In this document: positions 1,591-48,213 of the stretch, piece by piece
Position numbering within the stretch: position 1 is the stretch's first letter
How the letters are laid out: every line of letters starts with the position of its first letter
DNA from: Candidatus Tectimicrobiota bacterium
Lineage (GTDB): Bacteria > JACPUC01
Direction of reading: 5' to 3'
DNA: 64,000 nucleotides
Assembly (NCBI GenBank): GCA_016192455.1
Contig: JACPUC010000007.1
Coordinates: forward strand, 124,001 to 188,000
Notes under the pieces: model-generated
Told to the model about the DNA's origin: nothing
The model's database searches: none
What the model saw: the letters and a program-made list of their open reading frames with translations, nothing else
Program-made: the position numbers and the translations under genes

Positions 1591-1671
1591 GAACCACTGA
1601 TGGACACGGATAGACACGGATGATGCAGCATTTTCACTTCTCCGTGTTCATCTGTGTTCATCCGTGGTTCC
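1591..1671. repeat. Imperfect inverted repeat, left flank of GxxExxY element
   Basis: Two arms of about 31 bases, starting GAACCACTGATGGACACGG (1591) and ending TCATCCGTGGTTC (1671), are imperfect reverse complements around a short spacer. Each arm is itself built from a GATGGACACG / GATGAACACG-like 10-mer repeated in tandem. Closely similar arms occur at 2063-2165 and 28292-28355. No coding function is visible. Confidence 0.8.
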
Positions 1672-1688
1672 TTCCTCATCCGCGGTTC

Positions 1689-2156
1689 TCACAGAACAAC
1701 CCTTTTCCATTCGAGTTTCGGACGCTTGAAATTCAGAATGATCCCGACTCTTAATCTTGTGATTTTGAGGTAGTTTAGAATCTGAGCGAGCTCCAGATCC
1801 GTGATCTTCTCGACGGCCTTCGTATCGACAACGATCTGGTTGAAGGCGATCAGATCGGGCACGTAGTCCCCAACTTTCACGCCCTTGTAGATGACATCGA
1901 AGCGAGACTGCTGCTGAACAGGGATGTTGCGCAGACCAAACTCGACGACCAAGGCGTTTTCGTAGGGCTTCTCAAGTAGTCCATGCCCCAGGCCATTTAA
2001 CACTTCCATTGCGCAACCGATAATCTGCCACGTCTCTTCTTCATGCAGGAATGGACCTTCTTGAACCACTGATGGACACGGGTTCACACGGATGTCTTTT
2101 GCAAGAGAACCCTGATCTTTTTCCCGTCCCATAAATCCGTGTCCATCTGTGTTCAT
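1689..2156 (-). CDS. GxxExxY family protein (PD-(D/E)XK nuclease-like)
   Basis: The product has up to 155 residues and contains the family signature as GLLEKPY, followed by a nuclease-like core: YVPDLIAF, VDTKAV, then an amphipathic helix with QILNYLK and VGIILNF. The D...D-x-K arrangement resembles PD-(D/E)XK enzymes. The biochemical role of this family is not established. The ATG at 2156 lies inside an inverted repeat, so about the first 35 residues are translated repeat DNA. The conserved domain begins only at FLHEEETW, so the true start may be internal. The gene sits alone between two copies of an interspersed repeat, as if it travels with it. Confidence 0.78.
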   Translation of the reverse strand: MNTDGHGFMGREKDQGSLAKDIRVNPCPSVVQEGPFLHEEETWQIIGCAMEVLNGLGHGLLEKPYENALVVEFGLRNIPVQQQSRFDVIYKGVKVGDYVPDLIAFNQIVVDTKAVEKITDLELAQILNYLKITRLRVGIILNFKRPKLEWKRVVL

Positions 2157-2165
2157 CCGTGGTTC
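2063..2165. repeat. Imperfect inverted repeat, right flank of GxxExxY element
   Basis: The left arm 2063-2089 and right arm 2136-2165 are imperfect reverse complements of the same family as 1591-1671. The 27 bases at 2063-2089 reappear exactly, as reverse complement, at 28328-28354, about 26 kb away. The right arm contains the annotated start of the GxxExxY gene. Confidence 0.8.
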
Positions 2166-9259: not shown

Positions 9260-10414
9260 ATGCCCCTCGATCTCTCTCCCCTGCCGCTGATCGACGCGCA
9301 CTGCCACAGCCTTCTCCGCGACTTCACCCAGCTCGACGAGGCGGCGTTCCTCGGCCACTTCAGCGAATCGAGCGATCCTCAGCAGCTCCTCCACCACGTG
9401 CCGCACAGCCTCTTCTGGCACGGCGCGCAGCGACTCCTCTCCTCCCTCCACGGCTGCGCGCCGGAGCTGCCGGCGCTCCTCGAAGCGCGCCGCAAGACGG
9501 CGCCGGCCGAGCTCATTACTCGGCTGCTCAGCGGTCAGGGGTATCAGGCGATGCTCGTCGATCGCGCCTATCCGCCGCACGGCCTTCCCCTGGAAGAGCT
9601 CCAGGCGCTCCTCCCCGCGCGGCTCTACGAGGTGGTGCGCATCGAAGCCGTCGCCGAGGAACTGTTGCCGCAAACCTCCGGCTTGCGCGCCTTGCAGCGC
9701 GCCTTCGGGGAGGCCCTGCGGCGCGCCGTCGAGGCCGGCGCGGTGGCGTTCAAGAGCATCATCGCCTACCGTGCCGGCCTGCGCCTCGACGCGCCGTCGG
9801 AGAGCAAGGCGCGGGCCGCGTACAAGCGCGAGATTGAGGCGGCCGAGCAGAGCGGCAGGGTGCGTCTCCAGGAGGCCCCCCTACTTGCCATCCTGCTGCG
9901 CCAGGCCCTCGAGATCGCGGCGGAGCATGGCTTGCCGTTCCAGTTCCACACCGGCTTTGGAGATCAGGACCTCGACCTGCGGCTCGCCGATCCGCTCCAC
10001 CTGCGGCCGATCCTCCGCGACCCCGGCCTCGCCGGCGTGCCGATCGTGCTCCTCCACGCCGGCTACCCCTACGTGCGTCAGGCCGGCTACCTGGCGAGCA
10101 CCTACCCGCAGGTGTACGTCGACTGGTCCCTTGCGGCGCCCTTCCTGCACCTGGGGCTCGAGCCCCTGCTGGCAAGCCTGCTGGAGCTGGCGCCGTTTTC
10201 CAAGCTCCTCTTCGGCTCCGACGCGCATGGCATCCCGGAGCACTGGTTGCTGGCGGCGCGCTGGAGCAAACGCGCCCTTGGGCAGGTGCTCAACCGCTAC
10301 GTTGAGCGCGGCTGGTTGAGCACCAGCCAGGCCTCTGACGCCGCGCACCTCATGCTCTGGAAAAACGCCGCCATCCTCTTCCGCCTGCCGTCGAGTCCGT
10401 CAGCGCGCGGCTGA
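9260..10414 (+). CDS. Amidohydrolase family protein (FluG N-domain-like)
   Basis: A TIM-barrel metal-dependent hydrolase of 384 residues. Metal motifs: DAHCHS (His14, His16), QFHTGFGDQD, VLLHAGYPY and the late LLFGSDAHG. This is the amidohydrolase_2 pattern. Probable role: hydrolysis or decarboxylation of a product or precursor shared with the preceding GS-like enzyme. The start is uncertain. The ATG at 9260 gives a natural N-terminus but has no clear ribosome-binding site; a TTG overlapping the previous stop (9125) and an ATG at 9188 are in frame, but the extension is not family-like. Translational coupling to the upstream gene is possible. Confidence 0.83.
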   Translation: MPLDLSPLPLIDAHCHSLLRDFTQLDEAAFLGHFSESSDPQQLLHHVPHSLFWHGAQRLLSSLHGCAPELPALLEARRKTAPAELITRLLSGQGYQAMLVDRAYPPHGLPLEELQALLPARLYEVVRIEAVAEELLPQTSGLRALQRAFGEALRRAVEAGAVAFKSIIAYRAGLRLDAPSESKARAAYKREIEAAEQSGRVRLQEAPLLAILLRQALEIAAEHGLPFQFHTGFGDQDLDLRLADPLHLRPILRDPGLAGVPIVLLHAGYPYVRQAGYLASTYPQVYVDWSLAAPFLHLGLEPLLASLLELAPFSKLLFGSDAHGIPEHWLLAARWSKRALGQVLNRYVERGWLSTSQASDAAHLMLWKNAAILFRLPSSPSARG

Positions 10415-28218: not shown

Positions 28219-28250
28219 TTCTTTCTCGGCAGCCTTTCATCCCATCGACC

Positions 28251-28278
28251 GTAGGGGCGGTTCGCGAACCGCCCCTAC
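28251..28278. repeat. Perfect 28-bp palindrome (REP-like)
   Basis: Half-site GTAGGGGCGGTTCG followed by its exact reverse complement, with no spacer. The same GTAGGGGCG terminus recurs at 28602 and, inverted, at 28680, so this is a repeat family rather than a single operator. Confidence 0.8.
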
Positions 28279-28291
28279 CATCGGCATGCTA

Positions 28292-28355
28292 GGAACCACA
28301 GATGAACACTGATGGACACTGATATTTGTGTGAACCCGTGTCCATCAGTGGTTCC
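28292..28355. repeat. Solo copy of the GxxExxY-flanking inverted repeat
   Basis: Starts GGAACCACAGATGAACAC and ends CCATCAGTGGTTCC, forming an imperfect hairpin of 10-mer units. Bases 28328-28354 are the exact reverse complement of 2063-2089. No gene lies inside. Confidence 0.8.
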
Positions 28356-28376
28356 TTCCCCTACCTTCTAATCGCC

Positions 28377-28434
28377 CTCTGCGTCTCCGCGGTGCACTCC
28401 ATTGAACCGCAGAGACGCAGAGCACGCAGAGGTG
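28377..28434. repeat. Second interspersed repeat family (cgcagagacgcagag type)
   Basis: TCTGCGTCTCCGCGGT (28377-28392) pairs with ACCGCAGAGACGCAGA (28406-28421) with one mismatch, followed by another AGCACGCAGAGG unit. Similar sequences are known as dispersed repeats in many uncultured bacterial genomes. Confidence 0.7.
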
Positions 28435-48177: not shown

Positions 48178-48213
48178 GATCCGCAGATTGCGCAGATTTC
48201 ACGGATTGAATCG
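48178..48213. repeat. Third interspersed repeat family (gcagattgcgcagatt type)
   Basis: Contains GATCCGCAGATTGCGCAGAT then TTCACGGATTGAATC, tandem GCAGATT units related to dispersed repeats known from many uncultured bacteria. Only one copy is in the window. Confidence 0.5.

Follow-up and report, generated by a model that had tools for sequence, protein, structure and literature searches.

GxxExxY genes framed by inverted three-box arrays look like tiny selfish DNA elements that encode a predicted end-recognising nuclease

A small gene of the GxxExxY family in the window (the whole 64,000-nt stretch of DNA analysed here) lies between two palindromes built from arrays of three 7-bp boxes, and inverted arrays of this kind bracket GxxExxY genes across phyla. 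The unit resembles a tiny selfish DNA element of a hitherto undescribed kind, one that supplies the nuclease recognising its ends. The explanation that we favour, and consider probable, is a minimal selfish element with a nuclease that would act on the ends of the element and serve gene-less copies in trans.

The window element sits between protein genes; its neighbours are an alpha/beta hydrolase, a DsrE protein and an ORF that was judged to be dehydrogenase/aldolase-like by eye instead of by profile. The element and the related copies in the window comprise the following features.

1689–2156, reverse strand: GxxExxY ORF (TIGR04256/PF13366), 155 amino acids from the ATG at 2156
1698–2039, reverse strand: predicted conserved RecB/Cas4-like PD-(D/E)XK domain, residues 40–153, from alignment, fold model and structural matches
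1591–1671: left palindrome, imperfect, in which a forward and a reverse arm face each other
1595–1621, forward strand: tri-box arm of the left palindrome, CACTGAT-GGA-CACGGAT-AGA-CACGGAT, spacers 3,3
1640–1666, reverse strand: tri-box arm of the left palindrome, CACGGAT-GAA-CACAGAT-GAA-CACGGAG, spacers 3,3
2063–2166: right palindrome, imperfect, overlapping the N-terminal end of the GxxExxY ORF
2067–2093, forward strand: tri-box arm of the right palindrome, CACTGAT-GGA-CACGGGT-TCA-CACGGAT, spacers 3,3
2135–2161, reverse strand: tri-box arm of the right palindrome, CACGGAT-GAA-CACAGAT-GGA-CACGGAT, spacers 3,3
28293–28354: solo (gene-less) palindrome of the version found at the window gene, with arms at 28297–28323 (forward) and 28324–28350 (reverse)
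28408–28431, forward strand: arm of another version, CGCAGAG-A-CGCAGAG-CA-CGCAGAG, adjoining the solo palindrome
48182–48206, forward strand: lone arm, CGCAGAT-TG-CGCAGAT-TT-CACGGAT, spacers 2,2, like those in the arms at a second GxxExxY gene of this genome (L002)

The arms of the two palindromes share one plan, AAC followed by three CACNGAT boxes with 3-nt spacers between them, and a block-shuffle control yielded a mean of 0.4 arms per window. The outer arms (1586–1621 and 2135–2170) are 86% complementary over 36 nt; between the two palindromes, the left halves are 91% identical and the right halves 97% identical. A sequence-only reading of this DNA had proposed that imperfect inverted repeats bracket the gene. 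The bracketing stands, with palindromes at 1591–1671 and 2063–2166 around the reverse-strand gene at 1689–2156, and the order is corrected: each side carries a whole palindrome, giving forward arm, reverse arm, gene, forward arm, reverse arm. Likewise, the 27-base segment that had been taken as the half-site belongs to a longer three-box arm. The proposal that part of the repeat is read as the N-terminus of the protein agrees with the positions of the start codons, as the right palindrome contains both in-frame ATGs (at 2156 and near 2132) and also, near 2067, the closest in-frame pair of GTGs, and the conserved domain begins only at about residue 40. Either the repeat is partly translated, therefore, or translation truly starts right at the border of the arm. 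The gene-less copy that had been placed at 28292 proved to be the solo palindrome, with two arms of the same version as those at the gene.

Profile searches assign the window protein to TIGR04256 (E = 1.5e-39; 134.9 bits against a cut-off of 35) and to PF13366, PDDEXK_3 (E = 1.2e-36; 126 against a cut-off of 22). Its ORF carries the motif residues G59, E62, Y65, D101, D111-T-K113 and Q125xxxY129. An alignment of 36 sequences shows no variation at G59, E62, Y65, D101, K113, Q125 and N142 and very little at Y129 or at E111, which is D in the window protein; the order D, ExK, QxxxY is that of RecB/Cas4-type nucleases. An AlphaFold2 model places 113 residues at a pLDDT of at least 90, with the first 39 residues at low confidence, and the best Foldseek matches to it are Cas4 SSO0001, the exonuclease LHK-Exo, the Cas4-family protein ACE1 and AddAB, at weak E-values (best 2.8e-3) and with a probability of 0.99 for Cas4 SSO0001. 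The protein is under purifying selection, because dN is 0.12–0.24 with synonymous sites saturated. The PD-(D/E)XK fold first suggested from the letters is thus upheld by conserved residues, fold model, structural matches to Cas4 and exonucleases and a weak Cas4 profile match of a relative, and the modelling supports a predicted RecB/Cas4-like nuclease. Phage defence is a known role of PD-(D/E)XK nucleases, Rpn among them (PMC10327210), a point in favour of reading the unit as a defence or toxin–antitoxin cassette whose nuclease attacks foreign DNA and which is exchanged between recombination-prone repeats. We give that reading very little credence: the window protein had no PADLOC match at E ≤ 0.1, a relative matches only Cas4 profiles, and these weakly, and solo arms vastly outnumber genes.

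Bracketing extends well beyond the window. We assembled 80 GxxExxY loci from about 20 phyla (L064–L143) by scanning named genomes, a set that is biased towards the LGPGLLE subgroup since the scan pattern was drawn from this closer subset after a first cross-family alignment had proved too diverse. Inverted repeats with a score of at least 20 frame 53 of 79 GxxExxY genes, compared with 11 of 1,833 random positions on the same contigs (p = 4e-72). Under a strict three-box pattern, 51 of the 80 loci have a left arm, 53 a right arm and 40 both, whereas in the control windows 1.2% of sides have an arm and 1 window in 1,245 has both. The arm logo reads TTTMAC and then three CRCNRAG boxes with spacers of 1–3 nt, the arms being inverted and pointing inwards. 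Sequence information is at background level beyond position −7 outside the arm, and this fall therefore marks the edge of the element. At some loci, such as L118, L119 and L104, no recognisable bracket was found. GxxExxY genes across phyla nevertheless retain their association with the repeat, so that neither refuting condition set with the sequence-only reading, a repeat confined to one locus or related genomes with the gene and no repeat association, counted against the proposal. Carriage on plasmids is rare (8 of 72,556 records). The box sequences had no match in the open-licence literature, an earlier description elsewhere being possible, and the name GxxExxY receives only passing mention in the available parts of that literature.

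Within the window genome (4.46 Mb), the half-site AACCACNGATGNACACNGAT (20 bases, 2 mismatches) has 174 matches and its reversed-pattern control has none, so the window repeat is not a product of chance; it is dispersed, not confined to a single locus as it might have been. The genome holds three GxxExxY genes against these 174 half-sites. Such an excess of repeats would also fit genes that had landed by chance in repeats already common in each genome, but family-wide bracketing and the equal spacing of the two arms contradict this idea, as does the finding that GxxExxY genes and four-helix-bundle genes sharing a genome have different box classes, and we grant it almost no probability. The other two GxxExxY genes are bracketed as well, by different versions of the array: by inspection, L001 has CGCNGAT boxes with spacers 2,3 and L002 (contig C27) CGCAGAT boxes with spacers 2,2, each alike on both sides. 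When arm covariation was examined, the palindromes of this genome (14 units of shared ancestry) showed fixed left/right differences.

The surroundings of the copies in this genome are themselves repetitive. Solo palindromes, including the one in the window (mosaic at 28240–28431), sit between a CGCAGAG-type arm and a GGTAGGGGCGGTTCGCGAACCGCCCCTACC palindrome, in a mosaic that recurs at many sites. Because solo palindromes sit inside these larger mosaics, some copies may have spread together with other repeats. Runs of half-sites at regular spacings of 172 bp and about 240 bp occur at C26:30209–30744 and C27:2964–3462, which suggests tandem duplication of palindrome-containing units. A single Y1_Tnp domain match in the genome (C2:40511–40744; L256) lies on another contig, inside an open frame of 1,399 amino acids. 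A search of the genome for the four-helix-bundle family PF05635 gave no match, and the controls in the same search also went without a match.

Gene-less arms accompany GxxExxY genes in other genomes. Nineteen of 20 genomes with a bracketed gene hold 2 to 125 CAC-type arms, against one match overall for the reversed-pattern control. AACC-type arms are present in 41 of 241 genomes spread over the domain, and by hand tally GxxExxY was found in 33 of the 41 genomes with arms and in 25 of the 200 without. Among genomes with at least 10 arms, 17 of 18 carry GxxExxY (also a hand tally). The exception, G008, has 29 arms with spacing 2,2, and no GxxExxY gene was detected in it; the same genome has 19 partial PF05635 matches, many of them as divergent pairs a few hundred bases apart. 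A hand count of listed arms in five genomes showed that 58 of 59 solo arms share the spacing of the sampled gene of their own genome. The best support for the proposed pairing of an autonomous copy with solo repeats comes from G118, a single complete chromosome of what looks like a cyanobacterium: its one GxxExxY gene carries the same exact arm version on both sides, and that version has 131 matches genome-wide (control, 0), most of them single 27-mers without an inverted partner.

Several local arrangements were recorded in these genomes. Single arms of G118 (L257–L286) are often flanked by arrays of heptamers, (GGCAAGA)n and, in inverted orientation, (TCTTGCC)n. A replication-strand bias of arms was considered and dropped, as the full list shows mixed strands. 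G049 holds seven near-identical gene-less copies of ~170 bp at different sites; copies there (L204–L220) have further outer inverted ends (TTGA.TCCTG) with possible TA flanks, and often adjoin another repeat (cgcggcta/tagccgcg). On contig C1 of G211, a genome in one contig, about ten matches to GxxExxY, of which several are partial, fall within about 42 kb (about 786000–828000).

Empty sites were sought in 52 genomes of the genus of L126, a locus whose record is named Methylotenera. Its GxxExxY element (9936–10400) lies between two genes of the same direction, which we take to be trpE and trpG; many congeners lack the element. In many of these relatives, alignments of the flanking genes end at the left arm and restart past the right arm, the pattern of a site without the element. 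Sequence comparison resolved 16 such empty sites, at which about 20–70 bp of ordinary intergenic DNA stands in the place that the element has in L126; the neighbouring sequences in G061, G075 and G076 are mostly 83–97% identical. The solo copy found at L126:12887 has no counterpart in G066, G075 and G076, so that empty sites are present in Methylotenera for gene-bearing and solo copies alike. These copies replace short intergenic stretches and are not clean insertions. Across 39 elements, no target-site duplication was enriched at k = 2–8 within 0–15 nt outside the arms. Taken together, the sequence comparisons support an element and its mobility, for which the nuclease would be the mobilising enzyme.

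How the arms are read can be gauged from the paired arms themselves. Spacer lengths are identical in both arms of 39 of 40 elements (shuffled mean 11.7, maximum 22), but the spacer bases are no more alike between paired arms than after shuffling (0.54 versus 0.52; 0.45 versus 0.43). Box positions 2, 4 and 5 are more alike than shuffled (p < 0.001), positions 1, 3, 6 and 7 being set by the search pattern and hence no evidence. Since spacing is matched and spacer bases are unpaired, the arms appear to be double-stranded boxes read by a protein, not a hairpin. A test for RNA hairpin selection on the arms found none, with unmatched spacers and with transition discordances that split 62:60 between wobble-compatible and wobble-incompatible. 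This result bears on the possibility that the arms form a transcript hairpin and the unit is an RNase III-cleaved intervening sequence of the 23S rRNA type. Although the four-helix-bundle family that includes the intervening-sequence protein has the same bracket architecture, and the Methylotenera copies lie between genes that read the same way, the unmatched spacer bases and the lack of wobble asymmetry leave such an RNA origin highly improbable.

Recognition of DNA by the protein would also be expected if the arms were operators of their own gene and the dispersed copies decoys or a regulon, and matched box spacing and protein–arm covariation fit that account. Autoregulation is nonetheless decidedly improbable, given that an equally spaced, inverted array also lies downstream of the gene, that the nuclease residues are conserved and that solo copies show presence/absence polymorphism.

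Arm features (box letters, spacers and prefix) track protein distance (Mantel r = 0.33, p = 0.001), and the correlation holds for cross-phylum pairs alone (r = 0.31, p = 0.0005). With phylum labels assigned from record titles, the mean arm distance is 2.99 within and 3.01 between phyla. The arm thus travels with the protein and not with the host, because covariation holds across phyla and phylum does not predict the arms. Such covariation is unexpected if GxxExxY is cargo between the ends of a miniature transposon that an ordinary transposase moves. That alternative draws on the terminal inverted repeats and gene-less copies usual in MITEs, on the outer inverted ends and possible TA flanks in G049 and on the one Y1-transposase domain match in the window genome. 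We consider it unlikely: besides the covariation, no target-site duplication was found in the 39 elements, arm-rich genomes nearly always have GxxExxY, and paralogues within one genome each have their own arm version.

A second protein family shows a parallel architecture. Genes of the four-helix-bundle/23S-IVP family (PF05635; L144–L173, from genomes G001–G040) are framed by inverted arrays with a period of about 7 bp in 15 of 20 cases, against 0 of 327 controls. The array sequences are unrelated to GxxExxY arms and differ at each locus, even within one genome; the two-box motif CRC..A[GT] was found within 500 bp of 1 of 30 PF05635 genes, on one side only. Because GxxExxY and PF05635 genes use different box classes in genomes that hold both, the protein family and not the genome sets the class of box. 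Cyanobacterial short tandem heptamer repeats (STRR) are arrays of 7-bp repeats, and in this they resemble the 7-bp arrays beside the G118 arms and around PF05635 genes; no link of these heptamers to a protein family was found in the open-licence literature.

Known systems share parts of this design. REPIN–RAYT systems (PMC3116915, PMC2817692) likewise combine one or a few repeat-framed gene copies with many version-matched, gene-less inverted doublets outside genes. RAYT, however, is a Y1 HUH transposase that acts on hairpins, whereas GxxExxY has a predicted PD-(D/E)XK fold and its arms have unpaired spacers; lacking both a Y1 transposase and a conserved hairpin, the element is not a member of that group. 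MITEs and insertion sequences also have inverted ends common to gene-bearing and gene-less copies, but the GxxExxY element has no DDE or serine transposase and its ends are three-box arrays. GxxExxY is the sole gene between the window arms, with no known transposase there, and the element is not an ordinary MITE or insertion sequence because it shows neither a transposase nor a target-site duplication. The 23S rRNA intervening sequence with its S23 protein (PMC4990558) is likewise small and selfish, has a single ORF and about the same length, and its protein family, PF05635, has the same kind of bracket; its site is within rRNA, from which RNase III excises it, whereas the GxxExxY units examined lie between protein genes and encode an unrelated nuclease fold. 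No rRNA family matched at 1400–2400 of the window, where Rfam returned only sub-threshold animal RNA families. Cas4/RecB-family nucleases share the fold and the order of the D, ExK and QxxxY motifs; GxxExxY differs from them in being very small and stand-alone (a domain of about 115 amino acids) and tied to its own repeats. Rpn proteins (YhgA-like; PMC5350276) are of the PD-(D/E)XK type too, occur in several copies and have been tied to the mobilisation of DNA; they belong to another Pfam family, and abstracts on them mention no flanking repeat arrays.

In the selfish-element model that we favour, the unit would consist of the GxxExxY gene and its brackets, about 0.4–0.6 kb in all. Each end would be an inward array of three 7-bp boxes (CRCNRAG; CRCNGAT in the window genome), preceded by TTTMAC and with element-specific spacing. 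The small PD-(D/E)XK nuclease, probably as several protomers, would recognise the arrays as double-stranded DNA and may cut or nick there, and host repair or recombination of the cut DNA could place copies of the whole unit, or of a part, at new sites. We infer, in short, that the GxxExxY protein attaches to the arms, cuts them and thereby sets off copying. Gene-less palindromes (about 60–170 bp) and single arms would be by-products, and one or a few gene-bearing copies could multiply gene-less copies in trans, much as RAYTs do with REPINs, because recognition would need the arrays only. Weighing against the model are the lack of target-site duplications and the replacement of intergenic DNA in Methylotenera, the arms of G008 where no gene was detected, the unpartnered single arms of G118, the mosaic setting of solo palindromes in the window genome, the weak Foldseek E-values and the loci at which no bracket could be recognised. 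More tentatively, at somewhat short of an even chance, these units may represent a new class of transposase-free mobile DNA, in which a Cas4/RecB-like nuclease spreads a gene and gene-less families by means of three-box arrays, an unrelated four-helix-bundle/IVP family shares the architecture, and 7-bp boxes might explain the cyanobacterial heptamers.

GxxExxY has been annotated without a function in very many environmental genomes and now has a testable role. If the model is true, a nuclease is paired with a readable DNA code, of three boxes and their spacing, that varies with the protein, and a set of small nucleases comes with matched natural target sequences. It would also provide an origin for dispersed repeats of many phyla and a way for DNA to spread without a transposase, and the four-helix-bundle parallel suggests that the design is a general one, shared by proteins of more than one fold.
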